DNA from: Thiomicrorhabdus indica
GTDB taxonomy: Bacteria > Pseudomonadota > Gammaproteobacteria > Thiomicrospirales > Thiomicrospiraceae
Length of the DNA stretch: 64,000 nt
Direction of reading: 5' to 3'
NCBI RefSeq assembly: GCF_004293625.1
Contig: NZ_CP033040.1
Span: forward strand, 1,736,001 to 1,800,000
Each line of letters begins with the position of its first letter. Position 1 is the stretch's first letter. The notes beneath the pieces were generated by a model. It saw nothing but the letters and a program-made list of their open reading frames with translations, did not search any database and was not told where the DNA came from. The position numbers and the translations under genes are program-made. Shown one piece after another: positions 1,912 through 64,000 of this stretch.

Positions 1912-3432
1912 ATGTATCTCATGACCCATGGCTTAATGATTCAAGGCTGTACATCTGATGCGGGGAAAAGCACCGTAGTAGCAGGCTTGTGTCGTGTTTT
2001 GCAACGAAAAGGGATAATCAATGCCCCTTTCAAACCGCAAAACATGGCACTCAATTCTGCTGTCACACAAGACGGCGGTGAAATTGGACGCGCTCAAGCG
2101 CTACAAGCAATGGCTGCAAAAGTACCATTATCGGTTCACATGAACCCTGTGTTACTTAAACCTAATTCAGATACCGGTGCACAGGTCATTTTACAGGGAC
2201 ATTCCATTGGCAATCTTAATGCGATGGACTACCACTCTTACAAACCGAAAGCTGCGCAAGCAGTTTTCGATTCTTTTCAAATTCTCTCGGAGCAATACAA
2301 CAATATTCTGGTTGAGGGAGCTGGTTCACCAGCAGAAATTAATCTTAGAAAAGGTGATATTGCGAACATGGGCTTTGCTGAAGCGGTTGATTGCCCAGTC
2401 ATTCTAGTGGCGGATATTGACAAAGGTGGCGTATTTGCCCACCTCATCGGTACCTTAGAATGTTTGAGTGAATCTGAAAGGAATCGAATTCAAGGCTTTA
2501 TCATCAACCGTTTTCGCGGTGACATTCAACTGCTACAAGATGGGCTGGATTGGCTACAAGAAAAAACCAAAAAACCTGTACTTGGCGTTTTACCTTACTT
2601 GCACGGTTTATATTTAGATGCCGAAGATGCGATTCATAGCGATGTCGTCGCCAAACGCAACGCCCCTTTAAATGTTATTGCTCCGCTTTATCCACATATA
2701 TCCAATCACACAGATTTAGCACCTCTGATACAACATCCTCAAATAAACTTTCAATGGGTAAAACACAAGGCTTCGATTCCACCAGCTGACTTAGTGGTTT
2801 TACCGGGCTCTAAAAGTGTTATGACCGATTTAACTTGGTTGAAAGCGCAAGGTTGGCAAAATTATCTAAAAAAACATCTGCGTTATGGCGGAAAAATCAT
2901 TGGTATTTGCGGTGGATTACAAATGCTTGGTCAACAGTTACTTGATCCAGATGGCTTAGAGTCAGATAAACTGCATACACAAGGGCTCGGTCTAATGCCT
3001 TTTTCCACAGAGTTTTTTCCGGCAAAACAGCTAACAAACCTTACCGGCCGGTTAAATCTGGTAACGGCTTTCCCCCCTCCGCAAGTTAAAGGCTACGAAA
3101 TTCATCAAGGCCGGAGTAATTTCCATGAATTTCCAGAACTTAAGCCAGCAATCACCTTCAGCAACAACCAAACGGATGGCTTAATCAGCGCTGACAATCA
3201 AATCCTTACGACTTATTTGCATGGACTATTTGATGAAACAGAGGCTTTAACCAGTTTGTTGAATTGGGCAGGTTTGGAACAAGCCGACGCTTTTGATTTT
3301 AATTCTTTCCGTGAAGCCCAAATTAACCGTATAAGCGACTGCTTTGAAGAACATTTAGAGATTGAACAGATTGTAAATATTTTACAAAACAGCCACATCA
3401 CCACTTCCCAGTCAGGCTCACATAAATGTTGA
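1912..3432 (+). CDS. cobQ: Cobyric acid synthase (ATP- and glutamine-dependent amidotransferase)
   Basis: CobQ/CbiP amidates the b, d, e and g side chains of adenosyl-cobyrinic acid diamide using glutamine and ATP. The 506-residue length fits the family. The N-terminal dethiobiotin-synthetase-like ATPase shows MIQGCTSDAGKST (P-loop) and the acidic EGAGSPAEINLR segment. The C-terminal class I glutaminase shows the nucleophile cysteine in IIGICGGLQMLG (about residue 333) and the histidine in TTYLHGLFD. It begins 62 bases after the receptor gene and overlaps the next gene by 7 bases. ATG 1921 (MTHGLMIQG) is an equally good start by comparison with relatives. One copy of the ACCGGCCGGT palindrome lies at 3043, read as Thr-Gly-Arg. 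Confidence 0.93.
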   Translation: MYLMTHGLMIQGCTSDAGKSTVVAGLCRVLQRKGIINAPFKPQNMALNSAVTQDGGEIGRAQALQAMAAKVPLSVHMNPVLLKPNSDTGAQVILQGHSIGNLNAMDYHSYKPKAAQAVFDSFQILSEQYNNILVEGAGSPAEINLRKGDIANMGFAEAVDCPVILVADIDKGGVFAHLIGTLECLSESERNRIQGFIINRFRGDIQLLQDGLDWLQEKTKKPVLGVLPYLHGLYLDAEDAIHSDVVAKRNAPLNVIAPLYPHISNHTDLAPLIQHPQINFQWVKHKASIPPADLVVLPGSKSVMTDLTWLKAQGWQNYLKKHLRYGGKIIGICGGLQMLGQQLLDPDGLESDKLHTQGLGLMPFSTEFFPAKQLTNLTGRLNLVTAFPPPQVKGYEIHQGRSNFHEFPELKPAITFSNNQTDGLISADNQILTTYLHGLFDETEALTSLLNWAGLEQADAFDFNSFREAQINRISDCFEEHLEIEQIVNILQNSHITTSQSGSHKC

Positions 3433-4121
3433 AAATTTCACACCAAACCAATCTCCAAAACACTAATCATCAATTTGCTAGCTCTTGGAGCGGCGGTAAA
3501 GACGCTTGCATGGCTTTGTACCTATTAATGCAAGCAGGCCATACTCCAAAAGTGCTTTACACCATGCTTCATGAAGACAGTAAAACTTCCCGTGCACACA
3601 ACTTACCCGTTGCTGTTTTACGTGCTCAAGCTGAAGCGTTGGGCATTCCAAATCATTTTCAATCCTGTGCAAAAGCAAATTACAAAACTAATTACCAAGC
3701 GGTTTTAAAATCACTGAAAGATAAAAATATTGACAGTATTTGTTTAGGTGATATTGATTTACAAGCGCATCGTGACTGGCAAGAAGATGTCACACGAGAA
3801 AGCAGCATCACACCACTTTTTCCCTTGTGGTTACTTGACCACAAAAAATTAGTTGAAGAGTTGATTTGCGTTGGTTTTGAAGCCACCATCATGGCGGTAC
3901 ATCCCGAAAAAGCTCCTGAGTCATTACTCGGAAAACCGTTAAATACGGACACCATTGCCGAATTGGAAGAACTCAACATAGATGTTTGTGCAGAAGGCGG
4001 AGAATTCCACACAGTCATCACCAACGGCCCGATTTTCAACCATCCGGTCAAATTATCCAAACCGACTCTCAGACGCGGTGCAGAATTTGGTTACAGCTTT
4101 TTGGATTACTCAACACCATGA
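3426..4121 (+). CDS. DUF71/Dph6-family ATP-pyrophosphatase, B12-associated type
   Basis: A 231-residue protein with the PP-loop motif SSWSGGKDACMAL (about residues 19-31) and the conserved EGGEFHTVI segment near the C-terminus, which identify the DUF71 (PF01902) family of adenylating amide-forming enzymes. The archetype Dph6 makes diphthamide in eukaryotes and archaea; bacteria lack that pathway. A bacterial DUF71 subgroup is known to travel with cobalamin genes and was proposed to act in B12 amidation or salvage. The position here, overlapping cobQ by 7 bases and cobD by 4, fits that subgroup. The exact substrate is not known. Confidence 0.8.
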   Translation: MLKISHQTNLQNTNHQFASSWSGGKDACMALYLLMQAGHTPKVLYTMLHEDSKTSRAHNLPVAVLRAQAEALGIPNHFQSCAKANYKTNYQAVLKSLKDKNIDSICLGDIDLQAHRDWQEDVTRESSITPLFPLWLLDHKKLVEELICVGFEATIMAVHPEKAPESLLGKPLNTDTIAELEELNIDVCAEGGEFHTVITNGPIFNHPVKLSKPTLRRGAEFGYSFLDYSTP

Positions 4122-5284
4122 ATCACTTAACCATAACGGCAACAAGTCACAATCCTCATGGCGGAGGCATTTTTGAGTTTGCAAAACGTTACGCCCTGTC
4201 TCCTTCAGAGGTCTGTGACTTTTCAGCCAGTATCAATCCGATCACACCCAAAGTTGACTGGATAAAACTCCAACGACAGTCGTCCGTTGAATTGCCGCAT
4301 TATCCTCAAGAATACTCGACCTCCTCAGAATCCGCTTTAAAACCGATCTTAAGCCAAAAATTTTCAGTCGACTGTCGGTTTATATCTTTAACAAAGGGAA
4401 TCAGCGAAAGCATTCATCATATATTTTCAGCTATCCAACCGCCAACTTGCTTACTATTTACTCCGATTTACAGTGAATATCAAAAAGCAGCTCAACAGTT
4501 CTCTCGAAAAACTCTACAAACATGCTTATCTCCAAGCCAATGGTTACAAAATTCTACTAAAGAAACTTTACCGGCCGGTAGCATTGTGGCGCTGGTAAAC
4601 CCGTCGACACCTGAAGGAAAATGTTTAGAAATAACCGAAATAAAGCATTTAGTCGATTATTGCCAACAACATAAGCTCTGGTTGTTACTGGATGAATCTT
4701 TTTTACCCTTTATCAGCCTCAGCCCAGGGGTAAGCGGGCGACAATATTTACATCAATGCGCCAATCTCATTATTCTGCAATCTTTAACAAAATATTTTGC
4801 TTGTCCAGGTATTCGAATCGGTGCAATCTTTGCTCACCTTCACTCTAAAAATAGCTCAACACCAAGTTATCTGGCCGAGACTCTTAATGATTCTCCCCCC
4901 ATAAACCAACTATTGCCTGCAGTTTGGAGCCTTTCAACACTTGATAAATTATGGCTGATGCAGGCACTGCAAGATTCAGAGCATGAATCACAGACAAAAA
5001 ACTGGATTTTAAAGACAAAACCCGACTTCTTAAAACAATTGAAAGCATTAGAGTGCATCTTAAAAATCTATCCAAGTTCTACCAATTTTGTTTTACTGGA
5101 ATTCGACCGGCCGGTAGAAATCATCCAAAACCATCTAGCCACATTTTCGATTCTGATTCGTAATGCGGCGAGTTTTGGTTTTAATGCCCGTACAGCAAGA
5201 ATCGCTATAAAGTCCGACAGTGACAATCAAAAACTGATTCACGCCTTACAACGTTTAGACGCATTTTTAGGCGAATTAACATGA
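4118..5284 (+). CDS. cobD: Threonine-phosphate decarboxylase-like PLP aminotransferase (CobD/CobC)
   Basis: A class I/II PLP enzyme related to histidinol-phosphate aminotransferase that makes (R)-1-amino-2-propanol phosphate, the linker of the B12 nucleotide loop. The start is ATG 4118, which overlaps the previous stop as ATGA. From there the protein has 388 residues and opens with the family-typical HNPHGGGIFEFAKRY and CDFSASINP. The PLP lysine is in LQSLTKYFACPGIRIG. An in-frame ATG at 3986 lies deep inside the preceding gene and is not needed. Two palindrome copies sit in it, at 4570 (Leu-Pro-Ala-Gly) and 5106 (Arg-Pro-Val). Confidence 0.9.
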   Translation: MNHLTITATSHNPHGGGIFEFAKRYALSPSEVCDFSASINPITPKVDWIKLQRQSSVELPHYPQEYSTSSESALKPILSQKFSVDCRFISLTKGISESIHHIFSAIQPPTCLLFTPIYSEYQKAAQQFSRKTLQTCLSPSQWLQNSTKETLPAGSIVALVNPSTPEGKCLEITEIKHLVDYCQQHKLWLLLDESFLPFISLSPGVSGRQYLHQCANLIILQSLTKYFACPGIRIGAIFAHLHSKNSSTPSYLAETLNDSPPINQLLPAVWSLSTLDKLWLMQALQDSEHESQTKNWILKTKPDFLKQLKALECILKIYPSSTNFVLLEFDRPVEIIQNHLATFSILIRNAASFGFNARTARIAIKSDSDNQKLIHALQRLDAFLGELT

Positions 5285-7203: not shown

Positions 7204-8190
7204 CTAATTTGCAAGCACCTTTTGAAAAGCATAATACGCAGCACCTAACAAAGGAGCTTCCGGATTATCAACGATTCTAACCGGAATGTTCTCAATCGCA
7301 TGAGTCATTCGGCCTTTGTCTAGAAAACCTTGCATAAATTCACCATTTTGAAGTGCACTGCGGATTTTAGGGGCAATCCCACCGGCAATATAAATGCCAC
7401 CGGCCGGTAAGGTTTTTAAGGCAAAGCTTCCAGCCTCCACACCATAAATTCGACAAAACAAACGCACCACCTCTTGACACAAAACATCCTGCCCCATCAT
7501 CCCTGCTTCGGAAATCACAGCATTACGATCCTGCGATTGCATATCAAATTCGAGCTGTTCATTAAAAGGCGCAAAGTCGATACTTTTCAGAAAATCATAC
7601 AGATGGCCAAAACCATCTCCAGATAAGATACGTTCTAAACTCACGTGCCCGTTAAATCGTTCACGTAAAAAAACTAACAAGCTATCTTCCAAGGCATTTT
7701 GTGGGGCAAACTCAGTATGCCCTCCTTCGGTAGGCATAGCATGATACTGCGCGCCATCAAAAAAAAGTATGGCTTCTCCTAACCCAGTTCCAGCCGCAAT
7801 CACAGCTTTGTGTCCTTGTTTTGACGTTGAATTTGGGTTTAATTCAAAAAACGCATCCAATTGCAAAACACCATAAGCAGCGGATTCAAGATCATTAAGC
7901 AAATAAACATTTTCGATACCAAGTTGCTCACGCAGCGCGCTGGCATCAATCATCCAAGGTAGATTTGTCGTAATACATTTCTGGTCGTTAATCGGGCCTG
8001 CAATCCCGAAAACCGCTGTACTAACTCCCTCTTCACCTTGCAAAAACTCCTCAACTAAATCAACAAACTCAGTATGCTGGCCACTTGGGAAAGTTTGTTT
8101 GCGGTGCTCAATTAACTCACCCGAATCTTGGCTAAAAATTGCAAGGACGGTTTTCGTTCCACCCACATCACCGGCTAATATTTTTTGCAT
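7204..8190 (-). CDS. glk: Glucokinase
   Basis: A 328-residue ROK-independent (Glk-type) glucokinase that phosphorylates glucose with ATP in the cytoplasm. The phosphate-binding AGDVGGTKT is at residues 7-15. The catalytic aspartate lies in LLNDLESAAYG, followed by VIAAGTGLGEA and EGGHTEFAP. The ATG shares its A with the stop of the phosphorylase-kinase-like gene upstream, so the two are co-transcribed and translationally coupled. This points to handling of glucose released from storage polysaccharide. A palindrome copy at 7399 encodes Leu-Pro-Ala-Gly. Confidence 0.93.
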   Translation of the reverse strand: MQKILAGDVGGTKTVLAIFSQDSGELIEHRKQTFPSGQHTEFVDLVEEFLQGEEGVSTAVFGIAGPINDQKCITTNLPWMIDASALREQLGIENVYLLNDLESAAYGVLQLDAFFELNPNSTSKQGHKAVIAAGTGLGEAILFFDGAQYHAMPTEGGHTEFAPQNALEDSLLVFLRERFNGHVSLERILSGDGFGHLYDFLKSIDFAPFNEQLEFDMQSQDRNAVISEAGMMGQDVLCQEVVRLFCRIYGVEAGSFALKTLPAGGIYIAGGIAPKIRSALQNGEFMQGFLDKGRMTHAIENIPVRIVDNPEAPLLGAAYYAFQKVLAN

Positions 8191-11100
8191 TAGGCTTCCC
8201 CTATTCCACTCGTCTTTTGCAAAAATCGGAAGGCACTCACAATCGCATTCGCAACTTCATGAAGCGGACAGTAATAAAACTCTTGCCAAGCCGTCTGACG
8301 ACTTTCATCGTAATTTTGCATATGATTATTTTCTTGGGCAAGCCAGTGTAAACGAACCGCATGCCCCAAGAGAACATCCAACACCATTGTATCCTGTGAG
8401 TGCAAGTTCGGGTTGGCCTCCATAATCAACCCTAAGACTCTAAGCGCTTCGTAATATAAACGGCGAACTTCTGGAATTGGCGTTTTATTTAACAGATGAT
8501 CAACTTTGTCTTGGAAAAGCATTTCACCACGCGTCATATTTGCACTCAAACCATGATCTAATCGACGCTTAGGATTCCACTGATCGCCAATAATTACCCC
8601 AGCTGTCTGATTGACAACATCCCATACACTCTCATAAAACTCTTGAGGATAACGCCCTATGCTGCCATTGATTTTTCGCCACTCATACCAATCCTGAATA
8701 TCTCCCAATTCTGGATCCATTTCAGCACTGAATTGTGGCAGCGCTAAGTCAGATTCAGCATTTACAAAACGCATCATCTCTTGCTGATAAAGCTGCTCTT
8801 GGACATCAGAGTAGTTTTCCAGAACAAATAACAATCCAGTCGCAAACTCGTAGGGGGTTTGTTGCATTAGAATGTCTAAGGCATCATCTGCCGAACCAAT
8901 TTGCTTTGCTTGACGGATATGCCCAGCAAGCAATTGTAAAAGCTGCCCAGTTCGAATCATTGTGACATGCGTGAATAAATCCGGACGCGAACGAATCATC
9001 AACCCTAAATTTAAAATCAGTTCCTGAGTTAAAATCATGGCACGCAAGTCATCGGAATTAAACTCATTGATGACTTTCAAAATCTCAACGGCACCGGCTG
9101 GTTGTCGAAACGTCGAGCGTTTCGAATATTGGCGAGAAACACTCAAGGCAATTTTACGCACTAGAATTTCCGTCATCGCCCCTTCTAAATTAATGTCATG
9201 TTTACCTAGCATCGCAGCGGTCAAGCGTGCAATTTCCCAATCACTATGCTCGCCTGCAAACAGGTAAACCTCTTCCAATAGTTTTGCAACTGAACTGGTT
9301 TGTCCCGAGCTATTTTTTAGACCTGTGTCAAAGTCCTTACCGTGGCGCTTATATAAAACCTGCAGAATGACTAATTCATCCCGCAGATTTGAGGAATGAA
9401 TCAATTGCGCGATTAATGCCTCATCACTCCATTGTTCACATAACTGCTCGTGCAAAGTTGAGCCAGAAACCATCTCTACAGGGCGCAGAACCAAACTCTC
9501 TTTGGTTTGCACCGGTTGATCCAAGTCCGCTTTTGGCGCTTGAGCTAAATAATGCAAGCTCCGTTTCACCGAAGTGGGAAAAAAGTCTTTTAAAGTTCCT
9601 AGTTTGATAGGAATATTTCCAAACCCACCGTATCGACACTCTTCGATAAACTTGATTAATGCACGACTTCCCCCCTTGGATAGCATCGTACTATTCACCA
9701 CCATCACAATTAACGGCCGGCCGGGTAAGTGCCATTCACGATAAATATAGCCCATTTCCATCTTTAAACGACGCACCAGCATTTGATTATCTTGCGTTAG
9801 ATAAAAATCGTGTTTATTTAAAAACTGAGGTTGGAATAAAAAACGCTGGCCTTGATATTCATAGACACAGGAAGTCGTCAATCCTCTTGGATTTCTCTGT
9901 GGTCGCCCCGTCAAACCGAGCCTTTCAGAGCGACCCAGCCATTCAAATGCCTCTGCCAATGCACTGGCTTGCATCACTTGAATAGGCTGAATTTCATCCA
10001 ATGTTTGCGTAACTACACCGTATTCATGCAGCTTTTCTTGCACACGGCTATTCTCAGAAATAAGGGTAAACTGTAATTGCTTGCCTAAGCTCTTACCAAT
10101 GCATTTATGCCGATTAAGCGGATCAATATCTGTTATGTCGAGTAAGCCATCTTGCACCAATGCACCTAGCATAAATAAACTTTGCGCCCAAACTAAGGGG
10201 ATATTTTCATTTGGCTGACGAGCTTGAGAACCGGGAGTCTCTTGTTCGGCTGGAATGTTTTCTAAAGGAACAAAATAGACTTCAGGCAATAATTTTTCAC
10301 CATTTTGCTCGACCAAAAGACCTTCAAGTTTTTGTCGGTACTCCAGAGCTTTTTCAGGCTGGTTGGTAAACAAATAATGCAGCAGAAGATAAGTAAAAAA
10401 CAGTGGCCATTCACACTCGATGTTTTCAAACTGTTTCATCTCTTCAGGTTCATAATGCAAACGATTCGGGTCTTCATTCGCCGCCTGGTGACCATCTCGT
10501 AAGAATCGTTTACATCCATACCGGCCGGCTAACTTTTCAACAACTTCCGTTAATGTTAAATCCACCAGCTCCGAATTTTCTACGGCAAAAGCCGGGTAAC
10601 CAATCACACTTAATGTGGCAGCATCGATTTCTTTCGATAACGATTCTGATGGCAACGCGGTTTCAAGGGTAATTCGAGCGCGAGCAATCTCATCCGGAAT
10701 CACATGAATCACGGTATCGACTCCGCCTTCTGAACCAAAGCAGTTGAATCCATCCATTGCCTCAAGTGCTGCTTTAGCCATTCCTACAGAGCTGCTATTC
10801 ACTTCAGCAATCCCGTGGTTAATTTTATTACCTCTTTCCCAAATACCGTAATCGGGAGTTCGATAAGCACGGCCTATGTAATGCACTAGATTTTGAATGA
10901 AATGAACTTCATCCATCGTGAAGATAATTCGCAATCCTGAAGCTGTCATTTGGGCAAGCATGAGTAAATAAATACTTGTCGCATCCAACTGCAAATGCCC
11001 CCATTCATCATCACCAACTACTGGATCTCCACTATCCGTAGAATATTTTGCATGCAGAGCATCTAATGGGTTCTGGGAATATTTGAACGCTTCAACTTTT

Positions 11101-14004: not shown

Positions 14005-15018
14005 ATGCAATGGTTAAACACCCACACCCCCTTTCTTAGCCATCTTTTCTCTTTACTGCTGATCGCATTGTCACAACCAGCATTTTCTGGAAATACAGAG
14101 TCTACCGGCCGGTTGAGTTTTGTATTAGAAAACGATTTTTTTGTCGGTAACGATAGGAATTACACAAATGGTTTGAAATTCATCTGGATTCCAAATGAAG
14201 CAACAAAAACGCCTGAATGGGCAACCAAAGCAGCTAACGCCATCCCCTGGTTTCCAAAAGACGGTACAATTAAACATGGTTATGCCTTTGGCCAGAGCAT
14301 TTTCACACCCGACGACATTACCCTAAAAAATCCTCCCAAAGAAAGCCACCCTTATGCAGGATGGCTTTACGCAACCATGGGAATTGCCTCTGAGAAAAAT
14401 AACCAGCTGGATTTAATGACCTTCACGCTTGGTGTTGTTGGTCCTGCTGCAATGGCTGAAGACTCACAAAAATTTATTCATACGCTAATCAATTCGGATG
14501 ACCCCAAAGGCTGGGATACTCAATTAAAAAATGAGTTGGGATTTATTCTGACGCACAAACACATTTGGCGAGGTGTGAAATCTTTTTCTGTAAATCAGTA
14601 TGAACTGGACATTTCGCCTTATACAGGAGCATCTATTGGCAACATTCACACGAACGCCAGCCTAGGGGCGACGCTTAGATTTGGTAAAAACCTTCCGCAA
14701 GATTTTGGTCCGCCACGTGTTCAGCCAAGTATGCCAAGTGGTACTGATTTTAACCCATCTTCCCAACAAACCAATTGGTATGCGTTTTTAGGATTTGAAG
14801 GTCAAGCGGTTGCCAGAAACATTTTCTTAGATGGAAATACTTTTCGGAACAGTCGAAATGTCGACAAAAAACCATTGGTTGCCGATATCCAATTCGGAGT
14901 GGTGTTTGACTGGAAAGACCTTCGTCTCGGCTACACTCATGTATTTCGAACCAAACAATTCACCACGCAAAATTCCACCGATGGTTTTGGCTCGGTGACT
15001 TTAAATTTTGCTTTTTAA
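14005..15018 (+). CDS. lpxR: LpxR-family lipid A 3'-O-deacylase, outer membrane (DUF2219)
   Basis: A 337-residue outer-membrane beta-barrel protein of the LpxR (DUF2219) family, which removes the 3' acyloxyacyl group of lipid A in a calcium-dependent way. After a signal peptide (about 1-29) come the family signature FVLENDFFVGNDRNYTNGLKF with the Asn-Asp pair and Thr of the active site, the HPYAGWLY strand and the barrel-closing C-terminal phenylalanine. It lies 21 bases after the araC-type gene. The palindrome at 14104 overlaps codons just before the signature (Thr-Gly-Arg). Catalytic activity is inferred from the family. Confidence 0.8.
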   Translation: MQWLNTHTPFLSHLFSLLLIALSQPAFSGNTESTGRLSFVLENDFFVGNDRNYTNGLKFIWIPNEATKTPEWATKAANAIPWFPKDGTIKHGYAFGQSIFTPDDITLKNPPKESHPYAGWLYATMGIASEKNNQLDLMTFTLGVVGPAAMAEDSQKFIHTLINSDDPKGWDTQLKNELGFILTHKHIWRGVKSFSVNQYELDISPYTGASIGNIHTNASLGATLRFGKNLPQDFGPPRVQPSMPSGTDFNPSSQQTNWYAFLGFEGQAVARNIFLDGNTFRNSRNVDKKPLVADIQFGVVFDWKDLRLGYTHVFRTKQFTTQNSTDGFGSVTLNFAF

Positions 15019-23977: not shown

Positions 23978-24081
23978 TAGTTTTCCTCCAAAGGTCTTTT
24001 GACAATTCAGACCCTTACATTGAGTTTTATATTTGACCTTTTTACCGGCCGGTAAGAATTTCATTACGATTGTCAACAGAC

Positions 24082-36618: not shown

Positions 36619-36648
36619 ATTAATTTTGACCGGCCGGTCAAAATTAAT
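36619..36648. repeat. Perfect 30-bp palindrome centred on an ACCGGCCGGT copy
   Basis: The decamer at 36629 is extended on both sides without mismatch: ATTAATTTTG on the left and CAAAATTAAT on the right. It lies between the end of the lytic transglycosylase gene and the tRNA promoter. As RNA it would form a 13-15-bp hairpin with A and T tracts, so it could end transcription in either direction. Confidence 0.85.
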
Positions 36649-50857: not shown

Positions 50858-50886
50858 TCTACAAAAATCAACAAGTTAATTCAACG

Positions 50887-51927: not shown

Positions 51928-51933
51928 GGTAAA

Positions 51934-52110
51934 TTACGCCTTGTCTTGAACGACTTTTTTACCTTTGTAGTAACCATCAGCGGTTACGTGGTGACGACGG
52001 TGAACTTCACCAGTTGTCGCATCAGTTGTTAATGAAGTCGCAGTTAGTGCATCATGAGAACGACGCATGCCACGCTTTGAAGGTGTTTTACGGTTTTGTT
52101 GTACTGCCAT
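51934..52110 (-). CDS. rpmF: 50S ribosomal protein L32
   Basis: A 58-residue basic ribosomal protein beginning [20 protein letters not shown] and containing [17 protein letters not shown]. It sits between yceD and plsX, as in most gammaproteobacteria. Its small size makes it easy to miss. Confidence 0.97.
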
Positions 52111-52133
52111 GTCAGTCTCCTAAAATCAAAATA

Positions 52134-53666: not shown

Positions 53667-53708
53667 AAAAATCTAAGGAAGGAGCCGTATAAGATGCAAA
53701 ATCAAGAA

Positions 53709-54374: not shown

Positions 54375-54404
54375 TTTATCACTCCATTCATTAAATCTAT
54401 CCAG

Positions 54405-55541
54405 CTATTGTATCGACAATTCTTGAATAATTCTTTCAAAATCCGACCATAAAGGCGCTTCGAATAAAAGCCTCTCTTCCGTGGCCGGATGCACAAAACC
54501 TAAAAATTGAGCATGAAGCGCCAAACGTTTCATTCCTAACTTTCGATAGCGCTTGTTCAACTCCCGATCACCATACTTATCATCCCCAAGCAAAGCACAA
54601 CCTTGCGACAGAGCATGAACACGAATTTGATGGGTACGCCCTGTTTTCAACTTCACCTCTACCAAACTCATGTCTTTTAATGACTGTTTAACACGAAAAA
54701 AACTCAGAGCCTCTTTTCCCTCATTCGACACTTTGACATGCCAGCCGCCATCTTGAAGATGAATCTTTTGCAATGGCACATCAACACGTTTGACACCTTC
54801 AGGCCATGGATGACTTGTTATCGCCAAATAACGCTTTTCAAACTTATCCTCACGCATCTGTTGATGAAGCGCTTTTAAAACAGATGCTTTTTTAGCGACC
54901 AATAAACAACCAGATGTATCACGATCAATACGGTGAACTAATTCCAAACGTTTTGCCAAAGGACGCAAAGCCCGCAATACTTCAATCAAGCCGTAGCGAA
55001 CACCACTTCCGCCATGTACAGCAACACCACTTGGTTTATTAATCACCATTAAATCTTTATCTTCAAACAAAATACAGCGTTCAATCAGATTCAACTCTTC
55101 TTGCGGAATTCCAGTTTCATCTACCGTTGTACTTTCTGCCAATCTTACTGGCGGCACTCTAACCATATCTCCAACTTCCAAACGCTGATTCGCTTTGGCG
55201 CGCTTTTTATTCACCCGCACCTCTCCTTTTCGAACAATTCGATACACGAATGTTTTTGGAGCACGTCGCAAAAATCGCATTAAAAAGTTATCTAATCGTT
55301 GACCTTGATCTTCCTCCGTCACCTCAAAAAACTGTACTTTTTGGAAAGCGGCATCTAATACAACAGAATCACTTTTAGATTCAGTAAACTGTGCCTGCTT
55401 TGACAGGTTAATATTATTTTTATTTTTTACCGGCCGGTGAGCCTTTACTTTTGAGCCATCACTCATTCTTCCGCTCTTGCCGGAACGACCGCTCTGTTCC
55501 GAGCGGCGATTTACATTTTTTTTAGGAGCACGTCTACTCAT
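54405..55541 (-). CDS. rluC: 23S rRNA pseudouridine synthase RluC
   Basis: Modifies U955, U2504 and U2580 of 23S rRNA in E. coli. The 378-residue protein has an S4 domain (FVYRIVRKGEVRVNKKRAKA) and the catalytic aspartate in LVHRIDRDTSGCLLVAKK. An N-terminal extension of about 70 residues, rich in Lys, Arg, Ser and Gly, is absent from E. coli RluC. The palindrome at 55429 lies in that extension (Arg-Pro-Val). It is divergent from rne, as in E. coli. Confidence 0.93.
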   Translation of the reverse strand: MSRRAPKKNVNRRSEQSGRSGKSGRMSDGSKVKAHRPVKNKNNINLSKQAQFTESKSDSVVLDAAFQKVQFFEVTEEDQGQRLDNFLMRFLRRAPKTFVYRIVRKGEVRVNKKRAKANQRLEVGDMVRVPPVRLAESTTVDETGIPQEELNLIERCILFEDKDLMVINKPSGVAVHGGSGVRYGLIEVLRALRPLAKRLELVHRIDRDTSGCLLVAKKASVLKALHQQMREDKFEKRYLAITSHPWPEGVKRVDVPLQKIHLQDGGWHVKVSNEGKEALSFFRVKQSLKDMSLVEVKLKTGRTHQIRVHALSQGCALLGDDKYGDRELNKRYRKLGMKRLALHAQFLGFVHPATEERLLFEAPLWSDFERIIQELSIQ

Positions 55542-56849
55542 AAATCACTCTAAAACTTAATCCTATTTATCAAAACCAACATGAACTTTTACCAAGACCT
55601 GAAACCTTCCAGAAAAACTTAAAAAAGCTCATTTTGAGCTGAATTCGCGCCAAGGCTACCACAGAAAACCTAACCATAAAAAAATACCGGCCGGTAATAT
55701 TTAATTTTTGAGCAAATACAAAATCTATGCAAATGAAATCACAGATTACCTTACAGACGCCTCCAATGTGAATCTTATGGATAACTTTGTGGATAACCCT
55801 GTTTACAAACCCGGAATAAATCACATAGTAACAACCTAATATTATCACCCAGTACACATGACTAAAGTTTTAAACAATAGAAAAAATAAAGCTTTAAATA
55901 CAATACATCACAGCAAACATAAAACCATTATTAACTTTAATTTCAACAATTTAAAAATTAAATTTAACAATTTAAATAAACTTCAACCTCATATAAACAT
56001 ACGGGTCTGAACAAAGTTTATTAGAAAAATAATTACGGTAATATTCGGACAGATTCAATTTTGTGGTATATTTCACCTCGTTTTGAAACTTCTTCAAACA
56101 AAAACGTTTTGACTGCTGAGAATTTTTCAGCAGAATCGACGAACAGAATTCAACAAAAGGTTTGTTTTAAATGCCCAGAATCCTACGTTTTTCTGCGCAT
56201 ACCGTTTAAAACAAGTTTTAGTAACCCTGAACGTCAAAGACTTAATTATCCAGCTTAAATTCCCGTTTGGAATTTGAAGCCGAAAAAAGTCATTTCGCTT
56301 TCCAAACTCATGCCTTATCCGCATTTGAGATTGGCAGCTAGAGCAAAGACCAATATAAGTATCAGAAAGTAGTCTTTGCTCGATACGAATGTTACGCAAA
56401 CGCCATTGCACAAAAATGGCGACAACTTGGAAAATTGAATATTTGGTGTGCACAACTATTTACTCTTGTGCTCAAACAAAGCCAAGCTCAAAAAATGAGA
56501 TAAGTGGTCGAAAGAATTCCCACGGCTTGCAACAAAATTACAAGTCGTGCTACGACTCATACATAGAAAGCCAATCAAGCGATTCCGAACTATCAAGCTG
56601 AATCTGCCTAAGCGAGACTGAAATTTCATTCTCTTCGCCAAAAAGATTGGTCAAAGCTTCCACTTTTCGATGTGTACGAAAACACCAATTCAATCACTCA
56701 TGCAGCTCTTGCAAATGCCCTTAAGTTACTTAAAGGCGTTTGAAATTACTTTTTTGAGCTACAGACTCCAAGTCCTCCAAGACGTAACAATTGCTCGTGC
56801 GACCAGACCTTTCAAAGTCTTGATGTTCTTTTGAAAAAAAGAGACTAGC
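55542..56849 (+). promoter_or_regulatory. Long hairpin-rich intergenic/leader region of rne
   Basis: The 1308 bases between rluC and rne hold no convincing gene. The left part is very AT-rich (about 55860-56010). The right part has several hairpins: CTGCTGA/TCAGCAG (56113-56133), GAGCAAAGAC/GTCTTTGCTC (56341-56350, 56372-56381; perfect 10 bp), CGCCATT/AATGGCG (56401-56421) and AAATGCC/GGCGTTT (56713-56741). The rne mRNA of E. coli has a structured 361-base leader through which RNase E controls its own synthesis; this region is its likely counterpart. A palindrome copy is at 55686. Confidence 0.65.
55776..55796 (-). other. Two tandem DnaA-box-like nonamers
   Basis: On the minus strand TTATCCACA (55796-55788) and TTATCCATA (55784-55776) lie in the same orientation with three bases between them. 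An AT-rich stretch follows on the plus side. They may bind DnaA as a regulator; nothing else suggests a replication origin. Confidence 0.4.
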
Positions 56850-59702
56850 ATGAAAAGAATGCTTATTAATGCCACACAGCCAGAAGAGGTACGTATTGCT
56901 CTGGTTGATGGCCAATCCCTGTACGACTTAGATGTCGAAACCCCGCATCACCAAAAGAAAAAAGCTAATATCTACAAAGGGCGCGTAACTCGTATTGAAC
57001 CGAGTCTTGAAGCTGCCTTTGTCGATTATGGTTCAGAAAGACATGGCTTTTTACCTTTTAAAGAAATTGCACAAGAATACTACCCTGATGAAAAACCTGA
57101 ATCCGGTCGTTTTTCAATCCGCGATGTACTCAAAGAAGGCCAAGAAATTATTGTCCAAGTTCAAAAAGAAGAACGTGGAAATAAAGGTGCCGCACTAAGT
57201 ACGCAAATCACCCTTGCAGGACCTTATGTGGTCATGATGCCAAACAACCCAAAGGCGGGAGGCATTTCACGCCGTATTGAAGGTGACGAACGCAGCGATA
57301 TTCGCGACACTCTTAGCAGCCTAGACATTCCAGAAGGCATGGGATTAATTATCCGTACCGCTGGTGTTGGTAAAAATACTGAAGAGTTGCAATGGGGTGT
57401 GAACTACCTTGTTCAACTTTGGGAAGCGATTCAAAAAGCGTCCAATGAGAAACAGGCACCTTTCCTAATTCATCAAGAATCCGACATTGTGATTCTTGCG
57501 ATTCGCGACTATCTTCGCCAGGATATCGGTGAAATCATTATTGATGACATGCCAACCTTCCATAAAGCAAGAGACTTTATTCAGCATGTCATGCCACAGC
57601 AAGTCTATAAGGTTAAACCTTATCAAGACACTGTACCGCTATTTACACGTTTCCAAATTGAATCTCAAATAGAATCCGCTTACCTGCGCGAAGTCACTCT
57701 GCCATCAGGTGGCGCCATTGTAATTGATAGCACAGAAGCTTTAACAGCAATAGATATCAACTCAAGCCGCTCAACGAAAGGCGGAGACATTGAAGAGACC
57801 GCTTTCCATACAAATATGGAAGCTGCGGTTGAAATTGCACGTCAACTTCGCTTGCGTGACCTTGGAGGTTTAGTGGTTATCGATTTTATCGATATGCACT
57901 CCAATCGCCACCAGCGCGACGTAGAAAACAAACTTCGAGAAGCGGTGAAAACAGATCGTGCTCGCATCCAAGTCGGCAAAATTTCTCGATTCGGTTTATT
58001 GGAAATGTCACGCCAACGATTACGTCCTTCTATTGAAGAATCGACTCAGATTGTCTGCCCGCGCTGTAAAGGTGTCGGAGTTATTCGTGGCGTTGCCTCA
58101 CTAGGACTCTCTCTACTCCGTCTTCTAGAAGAAGAGAGCATGAAGGAAAACACTCGTCGCGTAACGGTGCAGTTGCCAGTTGATGTTGCCACGTTCTTAT
58201 TGAACGAAAAACGTGCGGAAATTACTCGCATTGAAGATCGTCACAACCTACACCTCATGATTGTGCCTAACGAATCTTTGCAAACACCACAATATATTAT
58301 TGAACGTACACGTCACAACGACGAAGTTTCTCAGTCACCAAGCTATGAAGTCAAAGAAATGCTAGTTGCGGAGCCTGAACAAGAAACCTTGCCGACTCAA
58401 GTTCAAGTCAAAGAAGAACCAGCAGTTAAAGCGCTGCAACCAACACCTCCGCCAACGCCACAACAAGCACCAAAACCTGGCTTGTTCTCGCGGGTCTGGA
58501 AAGCTTTATTTGGTTCCGATGACGCAGCAAAGGAACAGGAAGAAGACAAACCTAAGTCCAACGACAAACGTTCAAATAATCAGCGTAGCAATAATCGACG
58601 CAATAACAAACGTCGTCGTCCGCGTGAAGAAGAATCAAATAACGAAAACACCAATAACAATGGTCGTCGTAACAACCGTCGACGCAATAATCGTCGTCGT
58701 CCTCCAGAAAATGCTGAAGATGTTTCAGTCAGTCAAAACAATGAGGAGACGTCACAAGAAGAGACCGCATCCCCTTCTAATGAAAAGCCGAACAATGACC
58801 GTAACAGTCGTCGTCGCGGCCGTAACCGTAATCGCCAAAACGAGAACTCACCGAGCGGTGAAACCTCAATGTCGATAGAGAGTGATTTAGGAGAAGACTC
58901 AACTGAAACACCAGAACCTGAGGCAACTCAAGCCAAAGAAGAGACTGCGCCAAAACAAGAACGCGACAACAACCGTCCTCGTAACAAACGTCGTCGTGGC
59001 CGTTACAGTACTCGGTTCAATAGCCGTCGTCGTGCCCCTGCTGATGCGCAAAGCCGCTCGATTCACTCACCTGCACCACATATTGGTCCAGTTTCTGAGG
59101 TTCAAGCGGAAACGAAACCTGATGCATCAGAATCACATGATTCAGTAGAAAAAACACAAAAGGTGAAAACGACTGATTCGACTGAGCGTTCTGAACCAAC
59201 CCACTCAGACTCTATCGCTGAGAATTCTGAGAATGGCGTTCAATCAGAAACGAAGTCTGAAATGACAACAGAAACCGTTGAAAATATGGCATCAACAAAT
59301 GCAAAAGAAAATGAACTAAAGGCTGCACCCACAAAAGCGGATTCAGATAACTCACAGGAAACGTCTATTTCTTCAGAAGTCCAAAACGCTAATACACCTT
59401 CCGACGTTCAAATTCAAATGGAATTGTCACCGGCCGGTAACGAGGCGGATGAAATGGAAAAAGTGGAGCACTCCTCAGACGTTGTTCAATCAGAAACAAC
59501 TGAAAAGCCTGCTATGAGCGAAAAAAGCGCTTCAACTGAGAACGCTTCAGTAGAGGACGCGCAAACAACACTGTTAGAAACGACTGAAAAAAGCGACTCA
59601 ACTCCTGAAAAACAGGATTCTTCAGAGCCCTTTCAACCGTCTAATAATGACAGTATGAATGACGATTCCAGCAAAAAAACTGAAGACGTCAAAAAAGATT
59701 AA
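56850..59702 (+). CDS. rne: Ribonuclease E
   Basis: Main endoribonuclease for mRNA decay and rRNA/tRNA processing. The first 70 residues are close to E. coli RNase E ([21 protein letters not shown]). The S1 domain spans about 36-120. The catalytic aspartates are in TAIDINSSR and [12 protein letters not shown]. The zinc link is CPRCKGVG (about 405). The C-terminal 430 residues are low-complexity: several Arg/Asn-rich RNA-binding blocks (such as [15 protein letters not shown]) and then an acidic Glu/Ser/Thr-rich tail, which normally scaffolds the degradosome. A palindrome copy (59429) lies in the tail. Total length 950 residues. Confidence 0.96.
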
Positions 59703-59763: not shown

Positions 59764-59805
59764 ATTTTCAACAAACCCCAAATTTTGTTTAAAATTCTCA
59801 TAATT

Positions 59806-60195
59806 ATGAATACAACACTTAACAAACATCTATTTAAAACTTTGAGCGGTTTACTCATAGGAAGCTTAGCAATTTTTCTAAGCGGCTGTTCATGCACCCC
59901 AAAATCATCTTCTAATGAACTAGAGAAAAACCACGCCTCCATTGGTAAACTTCAAGGCACGCCTATGCGTGGGCAAATGCCAACCATTAAGGTGAACCAA
60001 GAATTAATTTTAAGTCGTTCACTGAATCTACCGGCCGGTAAGAATCATATTGAAGTGAAATATTACGTTGACTCGGCTAAACCTGTTGTCAAAACATTAA
60101 GCTTCCATGCAAAATCGGGCTACTGTTACGAACTTGAATATGCCAACAAAGATTATCGAATCAAATCATTAGGCAAATGCTCAAAATGTGAATAA
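59806..60195 (+). CDS. Small cysteine-containing lipoprotein of unknown function
   Basis: A 129-residue protein with a lipoprotein signal (AIFLSGC, lipidated cysteine about residue 27). The mature part has a second cysteine two residues on (CSC), one in GYCYELEY and a C-terminal CSKCE pair. The segment SRSLNLPAGKNHIEVKYYVDS and the late YELEYANKDYRI suggest a small beta-sandwich like those that read carbohydrate or envelope signals. The Leu-Pro-Ala-Gly is made by the palindrome at 60030. ATG 59806 lacks a good ribosome site. It sits between two terminators, so it is a single-gene unit. Confidence 0.75.
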   Translation: MNTTLNKHLFKTLSGLLIGSLAIFLSGCSCTPKSSSNELEKNHASIGKLQGTPMRGQMPTIKVNQELILSRSLNLPAGKNHIEVKYYVDSAKPVVKTLSFHAKSGYCYELEYANKDYRIKSLGKCSKCE

Positions 60196-60759: not shown

Positions 60760-60862
60760 CTCTGTAAACTCCCAATCACCATCGATTAAAATAAGTGCAT
60801 AGTTTACCGCATCACTCTCGACAGTGATAATGAGCCACACCAAATCTACACAATTGATTATT

Positions 60863-61594
60863 ATGCAGCCCATCTTAAAAAAACCCATCCTAACATCCAG
60901 AGTCCACAGCCCAGCTGGGATTATTCGTCAAACCCCTCCACCAGAACTAAAAACTTTCAAGTTTGATGAAAACTGGATTTTATTTGAAGATCGCTCAATG
61001 ATCGTTGTCAATAAACCGAGTGGGCTCCTCTCTGTGCCAGGTCGTGGCGAAGACAAGCAGCACTCCATGCAAACTTTGCTACAACAAAACTGCGCTAATG
61101 AAGAAATTCATGTCATACATCGTTTGGATATGGACACCTCAGGTCTAATGGTCTTTGCAAAAAACAAAGAAGCTCATCGACATTTAAGCCGTCAGTTTCA
61201 GGAACGACAAACGCAAAAGCGCTATGAAGCAGTATGTACCGGCCGGTTAGAAATCCCTCAAGGTGAATGCAAACTGCCTATTCGTTGTGATTGGGAATTT
61301 CGCCCTTTACAAATGGTCGATTTTCTTTATGGCAAACCTTCCCATACTCAGTGGCAGCTTTTACAGCAAGCCCAAAACCACTTTGTCGTTGAACTAACCC
61401 CTATTACCGGCCGCTCCCATCAACTACGCTTGCATATGAAAATGCTTGGACATCCTATTTTAGGGGATAACCTTTACGCCGATAATGACACGCTTAATGC
61501 CAGCACAAGACTAATGCTCCACGCCAAGATGCTTGGGCTCACTCACCCTGAATCACTGAATTGGTTGAGCTTTAATTCTCCCAGCCATTTTTAA
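60863..61594 (+). CDS. rluA: RNA pseudouridine synthase RluA
   Basis: Modifies U746 of 23S rRNA and U32 of some tRNAs in E. coli. The 243-residue protein has MIVVNKPSGLLSVPGRGED, the catalytic aspartate in VIHRLDMDTSGLMVF, the RluA-specific LPIRCDWEFRP and ITGRSHQLRLHM. Starts at GTG 60824 and ATG 60830 are also open; the N-terminus is longer than that of E. coli even from 60863. The palindrome at 61238 encodes Thr-Gly-Arg, and a one-mismatch copy (61406) underlies the conserved ITGR. Confidence 0.92.
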   Translation: MQPILKKPILTSRVHSPAGIIRQTPPPELKTFKFDENWILFEDRSMIVVNKPSGLLSVPGRGEDKQHSMQTLLQQNCANEEIHVIHRLDMDTSGLMVFAKNKEAHRHLSRQFQERQTQKRYEAVCTGRLEIPQGECKLPIRCDWEFRPLQMVDFLYGKPSHTQWQLLQQAQNHFVVELTPITGRSHQLRLHMKMLGHPILGDNLYADNDTLNASTRLMLHAKMLGLTHPESLNWLSFNSPSHF

Positions 61595-61897: not shown

Positions 61898-63172
61898 ATG
61901 TCAAACATTGACCTCGAAAAAGATGAACTCGCCACTCAAGAAATGTTGGCGATGCTTGATGACGGCGTTGAAAAATCAGATGACAATACCGCCTCCGACA
62001 CAGATCAAACCTCTGAAGACGGAATCGATATGGATGACATACTCAACTCTATCGAAGCAGTTGAAAATGAATCGGAATCTGAAGAAATTGAAGACATACA
62101 AAGTGCTTCAGACGATGCATTAGATTTAGTAACTGAAGATGCAAACACTGACGACTTAGATGCTCTAGATGAATTGGCTGAAATTGATGCACTCGCTCAA
62201 GAATCCGTGGCAGAAACACCTGATGAAGCAGAGGATTTAATGGCTGCCATGCAACAAGCGGAGCCAACCACAATTGAATCACAGGAATTTGACAGCGAAT
62301 TGGATGAAGAGCTTCACGACAATCTTCTAAGCGAAGAATCGACGGAATCGCCTGAAAATTTCGAAATGCAATCCAACAATTCGGAAGAAACAACCGAAAA
62401 TCCTACGGCTGAAATGGATGACCTAAATCTGGAATTACCGGACGATTTAATCACAGAACAACAAACAGATGTGGAAGAAGCTGCTTTTCAGGAAGAGGAA
62501 GACATAGATTTCCCTGAGCAAGAAACTATGGAAACGAGTGAATCAGAACCATTCACCGAAGAGAACGAAACCATCGTTGAAGATATTCCAGAAGAAACGG
62601 ATTTAACGGCTGAAATTCAGACAGAAGCAGAAACCGAAGCTGGAGATTCTGACATTATTGATGAGGCTTTATCAGTTGAAGAAAGCATTGATGCCATTGA
62701 GTCCCCTTCAGGCGAAACGGCGCATAATGAAATGCCTTCTACTGAAGAAATGCCTGCACCGGCCGGTAACAATTATGAGAATACCGCAGAGGCAAATACC
62801 CAACTGCAAAGCGCACTTGATCAGATGATGGAGGCGATTCAAATGAATGAAAAAATGCAACAATACGCCAAACAAGTTGAAGCGACCACCATCAAAGCGA
62901 CGCAAATGGCCTTAGCCACTGCACAAAAGGCACAGTCTCAAGCCCTGCAAACACAAGAAACCATTGAGGCAAATTTTGCCGCTGCGGAAAATGCATTTGA
63001 AACCGCTCAAGACTCCGGCTACCAACTCGAGTCTCAAGAGCTAGAGAAATTTGCTGATACCACATCAACCGAGATGGAAGCATTCCTCTCTGAAATTCGC
63101 GAGAAGAACCGTAGTTTGAATGAAACGAACCAGCGCCTAGCGGAACGCTTAGCTTCCATTCAAACCCAATAA
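61898..63172 (+). CDS. Acidic low-complexity protein with C-terminal coiled coil, unknown function
   Basis: A 424-residue protein of no recognised family. Residues 1-290 are dominated by Asp and Glu (for instance DDLDALDELAEIDALAQE and EEEDIDFPEQETMET) and are probably disordered. Residues 295-424 are Ala/Gln/Glu-rich with heptad spacing (LQSALDQMMEAIQMNEKMQQ; then ATQMALATAQKAQSQALQTQ) and should form a long coiled coil. There is no signal peptide or membrane segment. The palindrome at 62758 (Ala-Pro-Ala-Gly) lies exactly at the border between the two regions. The next gene follows after 29 bases and shares the short TA.QEAAT/TAQKAQSQ type of helix, so the two probably work together. Confidence 0.8.
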   Translation: MSNIDLEKDELATQEMLAMLDDGVEKSDDNTASDTDQTSEDGIDMDDILNSIEAVENESESEEIEDIQSASDDALDLVTEDANTDDLDALDELAEIDALAQESVAETPDEAEDLMAAMQQAEPTTIESQEFDSELDEELHDNLLSEESTESPENFEMQSNNSEETTENPTAEMDDLNLELPDDLITEQQTDVEEAAFQEEEDIDFPEQETMETSESEPFTEENETIVEDIPEETDLTAEIQTEAETEAGDSDIIDEALSVEESIDAIESPSGETAHNEMPSTEEMPAPAGNNYENTAEANTQLQSALDQMMEAIQMNEKMQQYAKQVEATTIKATQMALATAQKAQSQALQTQETIEANFAAAENAFETAQDSGYQLESQELEKFADTTSTEMEAFLSEIREKNRSLNETNQRLAERLASIQTQ

Positions 63173-63201
63173 ATTTCTCAAATGACGAAAAGGATAGAGT
63201 A

Positions 63202-64000
63202 ATGACTGACGATTTTGATGACCTATTGGATGACGTTTCCGAATTTGAACCTGAAATTGAGACCAATACAGCTCCTAAAAAAACCGAATCGAAAACTCAA
63301 AAGCTTGATGACCAAGACGGTATGTCAGTTGTATTAGAAACGGCAAAAACTGCTCAAGAAGCGGCAACGAAAAGCCAAGAAGTTGCTGAAGCCAACTTGA
63401 AGTTAGCAGAAGACTTAAAAGCGCAAGAACGCGAACTGTCAGAGGCCAATTTTAACTGGCGCCAATCTTTTCGAAGTGCTGTCGCTACTCTAAACAAAAC
63501 CAAAGGTCAATTTGTTGTCATGATGGCAATCACTCTCATCACATGCATGATTGCCATTGGGGTCATGAGCTTTTTGTTTTACTCTATCCAACAAAAAGAA
63601 CAAACCATGAAAGGTGAAATTCTTGACCTTCTTCAAAATGAGCAAGCGCTCTTCAATAAAGACATGAATATTAAGGTCGACCAAATCACAGCCATGATGG
63701 AAATGGTTCAATATCAAGTTGAACAAGCCTTAATGAAAAATGCAGTAATTCATGAAAAGTTTAACGAAAACCAAGCACCGCAAGCAGAAAACACAGCCGA
63801 TAATACAACGCTACCGGCCGGTGACAAAATTGACGATGCTCCGTTAATCAATCTAGCCTCAGAATCAACCAAGAAGGTCGAAACTTCTAACGAATCGGTG
63901 GCGGCAATACAGGCTGATGAAAAAGCAGTTCAAGCAACGTCAGTTAAGTTGAGCGAGGAAAATGTCCATTCAATTAAACAAGCGATTTCTCACGAAGTTC
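63202..64000 (+). CDS. Single-pass membrane coiled-coil protein, partial at window end
   Basis: Open from ATG 63202 (AAGGATAGAG upstream) to the last base, at least 266 residues, without a stop. It begins MTDDFDDLLDDVSEFEPE and has an Ala/Glu/Lys-rich helix (LETAKTAQEAATKSQEVAEANLKLAEDL). A single membrane segment lies at about 107-132 (VVMMAITLITCMIAIGVMSF), followed by a second helical region and a Ser/Glu-rich stretch. Topology is probably N-terminus inside. The palindrome at 63813 encodes Leu-Pro-Ala-Gly. No named family is recognised. Confidence 0.8.
   Translation, partial: MTDDFDDLLDDVSEFEPEIETNTAPKKTESKTQKLDDQDGMSVVLETAKTAQEAATKSQEVAEANLKLAEDLKAQERELSEANFNWRQSFRSAVATLNKTKGQFVVMMAITLITCMIAIGVMSFLFYSIQQKEQTMKGEILDLLQNEQALFNKDMNIKVDQITAMMEMVQYQVEQALMKNAVIHEKFNENQAPQAENTADNTTLPAGDKIDDAPLINLASESTKKVETSNESVAAIQADEKAVQATSVKLSEENVHSIKQAISHEV

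Follow-up and report, generated by a model that had tools for sequence, protein, structure and literature searches.

A palindrome iterated across the chromosome of a sulfur-oxidising Thiomicrorhabdus looks like a species-specific mark of self-DNA

The palindrome ACCGGCCGGT is present in roughly a thousand copies on the chromosome of this sulfur-oxidising bacterium and, judged from sequence, looks like a species-specific mark of self-DNA. Our analysis favours, with modest confidence, reading the copies as uptake-sequence-like self-marks that biased natural transformation would have spread and a symmetric receptor would recognise. The initial annotation had listed such a mark beside a methylase target and a binding site for a nucleoid, segregation or repair protein; among these roles it is the one that we rate best. 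The observations in its favour are a whole-chromosome density of sites, dialects centred on GGCC, AT flanks, an excess between genes, hairpin pairs, a frame preference, scarcity in mobile DNA, the presence of ComEC and the lack of a PF00145 or PF01555 methylase. Against it stand a ComEC distribution that is independent of the word, the non-palindromic nature of the described DUS and USS, the small number of one-mismatch copies, the deviating flanks in genome G078 and the lack of a PF12019 match in this genome.

Abundance and placement of the word

In the window (the whole stretch of 64,000 nucleotides that was analysed), ACCGGCCGGT occurs 24 times between positions 3043 (first start) and 63822 (last end), and the CCGGCCGG core is found alone three more times (Table 1), as had been counted in the initial annotation. 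Its estimate of chance rarity is likewise upheld, with a mean of 0.01 and a maximum of 1 copy per window in 100 dinucleotide-preserving shuffles. Most sites had been placed inside genes, and 21 of the 24 do lie within a listed ORF; 200 within-gene synonymous shuffles of the 51 window ORFs yield a mean of 0.38 and a maximum of 3 copies. A 464-kb sample of the genome, composed of the window and twenty 20-kb stretches, holds 175 copies, whereas Markov models built with the sites masked predict 0.24, 0.25 and 0.47 (orders 2, 3 and 4) or 1.9 (order 5). The whole-genome count that had been proposed as a check returns 1025 copies in 2.83 Mb, or one per 2.8 kb across the chromosome, and a single copy of the reversed control word. 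The excess is therefore neither limited to the window, given the genome-wide count, nor the product of chance or codon use, both of which are ruled out by the dinucleotide and synonymous shuffles and the Markov models. Such strong over-representation in the own genome is a property of DUS and USS.

Table 1. Copies of the palindrome and of its core in the window
Feature	Position	Context
Site 1, ACCGGCCGGT	3043..3052	Inside ORF 1912-3432 (cobyric acid synthase)
Site 2, ACCGGCCGGT	4570..4579	ORF 3986-5284, frame xxA-CCG-GCC-GGT
Site 3, ACCGGCCGGT	5106..5115	ORF 3986-5284, other frame than site 2
Site 4, ACCGGCCGGT	7399..7408	ORF 7204-8190 (-)
CCGGCCGG core alone	9717..9724	Flanks G..G
CCGGCCGG core alone	10521..10528	Flanks A..C
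Site 5, ACCGGCCGGT	14104..14113	ORF 14005-15018
Site 6, ACCGGCCGGT	16063..16072	ORF 15887-17005; 14-bp perfect palindrome
Site 7, ACCGGCCGGT	17946..17955	ORF 17002-20058 (RND-type efflux permease)
Site 8, ACCGGCCGGT	19509..19518	ORF 17002-20058 (RND-type efflux permease)
Site 9, ACCGGCCGGT	23279..23288	ORF 23042-24097 (-)
Site 10, ACCGGCCGGT	24044..24053	ORF 23042-24097 (-); 14-bp perfect palindrome
Site 11, ACCGGCCGGT	26531..26540	ORF 25838-26734 (-)
CCGGCCGG core alone	30596..30603	Flanks C..T
Site 12, ACCGGCCGGT	36629..36638	Between ORFs, directly upstream of four-tRNA cluster; 30-bp perfect palindrome
Site 13, ACCGGCCGGT	40824..40833	ORF 40602-41693 (-)
Site 14, ACCGGCCGGT	43746..43755	ORF 43611-44564 (-)
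Site 15, ACCGGCCGGT	44693..44702	ORF 44564-46051 (-)
Site 16, ACCGGCCGGT	45572..45581	ORF 44564-46051 (-); gapless alignment to relatives
Site 17, ACCGGCCGGT	45728..45737	ORF 44564-46051 (-)
Site 18, ACCGGCCGGT	55429..55438	ORF 54405-55541 (-)
Site 19, ACCGGCCGGT	55686..55695	Between ORFs
Site 20, ACCGGCCGGT	59429..59438	ORF 56850-59702
Site 21, ACCGGCCGGT	60030..60039	ORF 59785-60195
Site 22, ACCGGCCGGT	61238..61247	ORF 60824-61594; gapless alignment to relatives
Site 23, ACCGGCCGGT	62758..62767	ORF 61898-63172
Site 24, ACCGGCCGGT	63813..63822	In no listed ORF; ORF running past window end possible

In the 464-kb sample, 111 of the 175 copies reside inside ORFs, which is not the extragenic placement of REP or BIME elements, and 64 lie outside, compared with 11% of non-coding DNA. 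One reading frame accounts for 73 of the 111 ORF-internal copies. Nine pairs of copies spaced by 18–29 bp form hairpins with folding energies of −21 to −33 kcal/mol, and a T-run follows one of them (L007); inverted hairpin pairs together with enrichment between genes are also found with DUS and USS. Nineteen of 20 evenly spaced 20-kb stretches contain 4–13 copies, the exception being a mobile element, and the spacing of the copies is near-random but even (CV 0.94; variance 5.4 at a mean of 7.9). Two mobile regions, delimited after the sites had been seen, hold 2 copies in 61 kb compared with 22.1 expected. Across the 20 stretches we find neither restriction to nor absence from a terminus half or macrodomain, as would be the case for sites of the Noc, SlmA or MatP type, and the even presence of copies makes the previously suggested segregation role unlikely where it is tied to oriC or the terminus; a dispersed role in the nucleoid would be compatible with this distribution.

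A 24-bp dyad and its dialects

ACCGGCCGGT forms the core of a 24-bp dyad, aaawttt-ACCGGCCGGT-aaawttt, in coding and non-coding copies alike. Among 111 coding and 45 non-coding sites, the AT flanks occupy bases 6–12 from the dyad, with a stronger signal in the non-coding sites, and the composition returns to background beyond base 12. The flanks had been described as unrelated, which we have to correct: a symmetric A-then-T pattern is common to them out to base 12.

The 31 other genomes of the genus Thiomicrorhabdus contain only 0–15 copies of ACCGGCCGGT each, which rules out a genus-wide word and confines it to this genome. ACCAGGCCTGGT, in turn, is present at 84–718 copies in 27 of 62 family genomes from four genera (the reversed control has 0 copies in all 62) and at no more than 5 copies in 365 members of the class outside the family. 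A weaker excess of the ACAGGCCTGT type is seen in a few family genomes, and other family genomes carry none of the palindromic words. As in DUS and USS, we thus find dialects with a common core in one family: ACCGGCCGGT, ACCAGGCCTGGT and ACAGGCCTGT are built around GGCC, with the spacings ACC-GGCC-GGT, ACC-A-GGCC-T-GGT and AC-A-GGCC-T-GT. A T-tract is located at bases 10–12 from the dyad in all three word forms of the genus; outside the genus, G078 of genus g5 has other flank letters and a T-tract at bases 9–10. A mild excess of ACCGGCCGGT itself is observed in G024 and G013 (15 copies each, compared with 3.9 and 5.4 expected).

Nucleotide alignments to relatives reach ∼70–75% identity and are too poor at most sites. 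The sites at 45572 and 61238 align without gaps, a one-residue gap lies beside 44693, and the sites at 40824, 43746, 45728 and 62758 fall into variable, gapped segments compatible with either substitution or insertion. Positions may turn over between species: two sites of relatives are located in aligned coding sequence, and neither is shared.

We also put forward, tentatively and with slightly less than even confidence, that the words may be family-wide symmetric 24-bp self-marks with a new kind of dimeric reader, spacings that switch, an AT tract 10–12 bases from the centre within the genus, and a drive that requires neither cytosine methylation nor insertion.

The uptake reading and its rivals

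In the mechanism that we propose, a predicted symmetric DNA receptor at the cell surface or in the periplasm (a dimer or two pilin subunits) would bind the dyad and read its core through the grooves; bending of the DNA would be eased by the AT tracts, which lie one helical turn away from the centre. Word-bearing DNA would be taken up preferentially, and homologous recombination of the imported DNA, mostly by in-place allele replacement, would spread the word in the population. The word would accumulate in long-resident DNA wherever the gene product or the intergenic DNA tolerates it. A change in receptor specificity would change the word and give rise to dialects, and with loss of specificity the word would decay.

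ComEC is encoded in this genome, as in 56 of the 62 family genomes overall, and does not track the word because it occurs in carriers and non-carriers alike; one carrier, G006 (82% complete), gave no ComEC match. Our search with the PF12019 and PF07963 profiles returned neither a candidate receptor nor a complete competence pilus in this genome (G000). PF12019 has no match here and matches in three of the 62 family genomes, all without the word; the one of these loci that was read, L131, resembles, judged from its ORFs, an operon of type II secretion pseudopilins. PF07963 identifies 12 pilin-like stretches in G000, with one cluster in L166; PilB/PilT-like ATPases encoded in L168 fall short of the cut-offs and sit in a mobile element.

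The main rival to the uptake reading, which we consider unlikely, is a predicted dimeric intracellular DNA-binding protein (nucleoid-associated, condensin-loading or repair), the sites of which would be kept by selection on chromosome function and would co-evolve with it into dialects. The exact dyad symmetry, the T-tract fixed 10–12 bases from the centre across dialects, the near-random but even spacing and the scarcity in mobile DNA fit such a protein equally well. However, about a thousand near-exact copies, mostly in ORFs, demand very strong selection per site, and the word is not essential, because many close relatives lack any such word. Hairpin-pair enrichment and patchy loss are, moreover, typical of uptake sequences.

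Less probable still is a drive of the HIP kind sensu Elhai (2015), in which cytosine methylation and methylation-guided repair create and fix a palindrome. ACCGGCCGGT shares with HIP the GC-rich palindromic make-up and the very high frequency, and HIP1 and the alternate HIPs of cyanobacteria are described as GC-rich, species-specific palindromes that are iterated in genes, swapped between species and paired with a cognate methylase (PMC4390886). The comparison with HIP1 drawn in the initial annotation thus captures the iterated palindrome but not the conserved unit, which spans 24 bp here and has AT flanks out to base 12 that methylation does not predict. This genome has no match to the cytosine methylase family PF00145 in a search of 32 genus genomes, nor to PF01555 in a search of 62 family genomes, and so provides no word-specific methyltransferase from these two families; four of the ten ACCAGGCCTGGT carriers of the genus (G027, G015, G010 and G022) lack both. 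Methylase-driven HIP is disfavoured because of these missing matches, a cytosine methylase of these two families is rejected as driver, and the suggested methylase target of this kind finds no support. GGCC is also a phosphorothioation site, and, unexpectedly, G000 is one of the two family genomes among 62 that contain DndC. The decamer occurs 3 times in the other, G004, none of the 27 ACCAGGCCTGGT carriers has DndC, and the dnd genes of G000 lie in an AT-rich region without any ACCGGCCGGT site, which leads us to reject phosphorothioation as driver.

Self-copying of a mobile or inserting repeat, of REP, BIME or MITE-like type, to about a thousand copies is very improbable. It would account for the high copy number, the genus-restricted word and the paired, hairpin-forming copies, but the word length of 10 bp is not divisible by three and most copies nonetheless lie inside open ORFs, the alignments at 45572 and 61238 are gapless, 44693 has the one-residue gap beside it, and flanks are unrelated outside base 12; the earlier statement that the word is not a mobile repeat is thus supported. 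We give the least credence to transcription terminators or other RNA elements as the main role, for which the copies outside ORFs and the nine stable hairpins speak, since the majority of copies stand singly within ORFs, a decamer palindrome by itself is unable to form a looped hairpin, and the flanks are T-ended on both sides rather than one.

Comparison with known uptake systems

To our knowledge, uptake sequences have been proven in two families only, and none is palindromic. If the uptake reading is true, these free-living sulfur oxidisers would represent a third family, whose words are symmetric, form dialects and have often been lost secondarily, offering an independent test of how uptake words arise and change and suggesting that the reader is a dimer. 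Should something other than uptake drive the word, a genome-wide site and its reader would have been overlooked. Under either reading the words distinguish DNA of long residence from recent acquisitions, and, as a practical handle, adding a site might make these species transformable. Our literature search found no paper on uptake or transformation in these genera, and no description of ACCGGCCGGT or of the dialect words.

In Campylobacter jejuni, uptake is governed by methylation at the palindromic RAATTY (CtsM). The likeness lies in a palindromic word that governs uptake; unlike ACCGGCCGGT, RAATTY acts in a methylation-dependent manner and is not an over-represented long word.

The USS of Pasteurellaceae (Hin and Apl types) resemble our sites in their short iterated core, in A's-then-T's segments about one helical turn away and in dialects by subclade, and an origin by substitution rather than insertion is reported for them (PMC1626085). 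They differ in having a non-palindromic core, both AT segments on one side and an uptake bias that is proven, whereas for the word here it is predicted. The DUS of Neisseriaceae (PMC3630211) form dialects with a common short core, occur about once per 1–3 kb and are found as inverted hairpin pairs, in their case at terminators; for overlapping simDUS/kingDUS pairs with dyad symmetry, the authors suggested dimer-based recognition. In contrast to the word here, DUS are 10–12-mers without dyad symmetry of their own, and their receptor is ComP. One-mismatch copies outnumber perfect DUS in two Neisseria (1.15–1.45 per perfect copy, PMC3630211), whereas in our 464-kb sample they are rarer than perfect copies (50 compared with 175).

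A palindrome iterated throughout the genome

The iteration of ACCGGCCGGT is a real, striking and genome-wide feature of Thiomicrorhabdus indica (genome G000), with dialects across its family. The initial annotation had reported 24 perfect copies of this decamer and three additional cores (CCGGCCGG) in the window, and we confirm both counts (0.01 decamers are expected from dinucleotide shuffles). The genome, a single contig of 2,829,883 bases in which the window spans G000:C1:1736001-1800000, contains 1025 copies, compared with one copy of the reversed word. A 464-kb sample, made up of the window and twenty 20-kb stretches at even spacing, holds 175, where masked Markov models predict 0.24 to 0.47 (order 2 to 4) or 1.9 (order 5), and the 51 window ORFs hold 21, where synonymous shuffles yield a mean of 0.38. 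Of the palindromic decamers that occur 8 or more times in the sample, ACCGGCCGGT reaches an observed/expected ratio of 521, and the runner-up 2.4.

The conserved unit is aaawtttACCGGCCGGTaaawttt. On both sides of the word, A is preferred at the three bases after GGT and T at +5 to +7 (sites used: 111 in coding and 45 in non-coding DNA, after 19 of the 175 were set aside as paired or near an end), and beyond 12 bases from the dyad the flanks have background composition. This AT pattern is not a by-product of the encoded peptide, because it is stronger at non-coding copies (A at +1, for example, occurs in 78% of non-coding and 45% of coding copies). Core substitutions are uncommon: compared with the 175 perfect sites there are 50 with one mismatch. 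The changed base is the outermost A/T in 27 of these, and the central GC is intact in all 50.

Related palindromes in the family

ACCGGCCGGT is the own word of G000 within its genus (g1), as the 31 congeners, several of them incomplete, carry 0 to 15 copies each. The whole genomes of G024 and G013 have 15 each, where 3.9 and 5.4 would be expected, and these copies may be left over from the same dialect. ACCAGGCCTGGT, with 0 copies in the whole genome of G000, reaches 84 to 718 copies in 27 of the 62 family genomes (ten in g1, seven of 11 in genus g6, nine of nine in g5 and the one genome of g3) and 16 to 38 in four more; its reversed control has 0 copies in all 62, and 365 genomes of the class outside the family have at most five ACCAGGCCTGGT each. 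Counts of the ACNGGCCNGT pattern and its reversed control are 282/63 in G018, 209/57 in G005, 165/65 in G025 and 146/12 in G002, and ACAGGCCTGT, then TCA, is seen in stretches of G018, G005 and G025.

In three words, ACCGGCCGGT, ACCAGGCCTGGT (78 sites of g1) and ACAGGCCTGT (23 sites), a T-tract lies at bases 10-12 from the dyad, its distance unchanged between core halves of 5 bp (two of these words) and 6 bp (one). This constancy speaks for a symmetric protein as the putative reader. In G078, a g5 genome, the ACCAGGCCTGGT T-tract is found at 9-10, with G-rich letters preceding it.

Placement of the sites and scarcity in mobile DNA

Within ORFs of at least 90 aa we located 111 of the 175 sites; 64 lie outside or span an ORF end, compared with 11% of the sampled DNA outside such ORFs. 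ACCAGGCCTGGT is likewise enriched outside ORFs in G078 (18 of 66 sites, 8.6% of DNA) and G030 (26 of 55, 11.6%). The frame xxA-CCG-GCC-GGT is used by 73 of the 111 ORF copies (16 of 21 in the window), and LPAG is the commonest peptide (35).

Random spacing describes the sites in the main (CV 0.94) but fails at short range, where close pairs are in excess: 12 of 154 intervals are <100 bp, where 6.5 are expected, and nine of the 12 measure 18 to 29 bp. Hairpins of -21 to -33 kcal/mol are predicted for each of these nine pairs. Of the window sites aligned to relatives, two are in register, one adjoins a gap and four fall in variable segments, so that an origin by substitution may be favoured, on few cases.

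A plasmid-like or conjugative element lies beside a tRNA-Ser gene. As far as position 1885000 it carries 3 copies of ACCGGCCGGT, compared with ~25 at genome mean density; one of these lies in its stretch L014, which encodes ParA, a TrfA-type replication protein, a resolvase and a TraG-like protein. An AT-rich region with DndB, a DndC match, an SMC-like ATPase, an integrase and HipA has 0 copies, compared with 9.4 expected. Together, L014, L168 (another stretch of the element) and the AT-rich region hold 2 copies in 61 kb versus 22.1 expected (Poisson 7e-8, a flattering value, as the regions were picked after counting).

Coordinates of sites, regions and neighboring features
Feature	Position	Remark
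Perfect 30-bp palindrome	window 36629	directly upstream of the tRNA row
Four consecutive tRNA genes	window 36097-36550, minus strand	two members score equally
Decamer-free gap, ~10 kb	window 26541-36628	lower G+C (0.36-0.37 at 28-34 kb); sensor kinase and GGDEF genes
Decamer-free gap, ~10 kb	window 45738-55428	
Aligned site	window 45572	in register
Aligned site	window 61238	in register
Aligned site	window 44693	adjoins a gap
Hairpin pair	L007:3584	terminates in a T run
Element adjoining tRNA-Ser (at 1816111)	G000:C1:1816111-1885000 (L260, L014, L259, L168, L261)	1885000 is the end of the sequence examined; also encodes PilB/PilT-like ATPases and a reverse transcriptase
AT-rich region	G000:C1:2034001-2060000	
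DndC match	G000:C1:2036757-2038127 (L256)	in the AT-rich region
Longer unrelated repeat around CTGACTCGGATT	G024:C1:1745001-1825000 (L051-L054)	~14 copies/80 kb

Likeness to uptake sequences and rival explanations

The overall pattern is that described for uptake sequences (PMC1626085, PMC3630211): density, dialects around a shared center, loss in many relatives, A-then-T tracts about one helical turn out, hairpin pairs, intergenic enrichment and scarcity in mobile DNA. The half-site CCGGT-AAAWTTT resembles the Haemophilus influenzae USS as described there (GCGGT, then an A-then-T segment), a likeness that is suggestive only. The palindromic form sets the G000 word apart from described uptake sequences, and Frye and others suggested dimer recognition for DUS pairs overlapping with dyad symmetry (PMC3630211). 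Given the uptake-like pattern, the palindromic form and this earlier suggestion, we propose that a putative symmetric receptor would read the dyad and that biased transformation may have driven the spread of the word. G000 encodes ComEC (930 aa), but most non-carriers also have the protein.

The main rival is an intracellular dimeric protein binding the sites, which would explain the dyad equally well. In all features that sequence alone can show, the word seems to work like an uptake sequence, but from sequence it can be called only a candidate member of that class.

The defining feature of highly iterated palindromes (HIP), according to Elhai (PMC4390886), is a cognate methylase, and G000 differs from them in that profile searches of its genome returned no match to PF00145 or PF01555. 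Neither family is found in four of the ten g1 carriers of ACCAGGCCTGGT (G027, G015, G010, G022), nor in G025 and G018, which have a weaker dialect. One coincidence counts against the present reading: GGCC is one known phosphorothioation site and G000 is one of two family genomes (of 62) with DndC. However, DndC is missing from all 27 ACCAGGCCTGGT carriers, G004 has DndC yet only 3 decamers, and the dnd region of G000 is site-free, like a late arrival.
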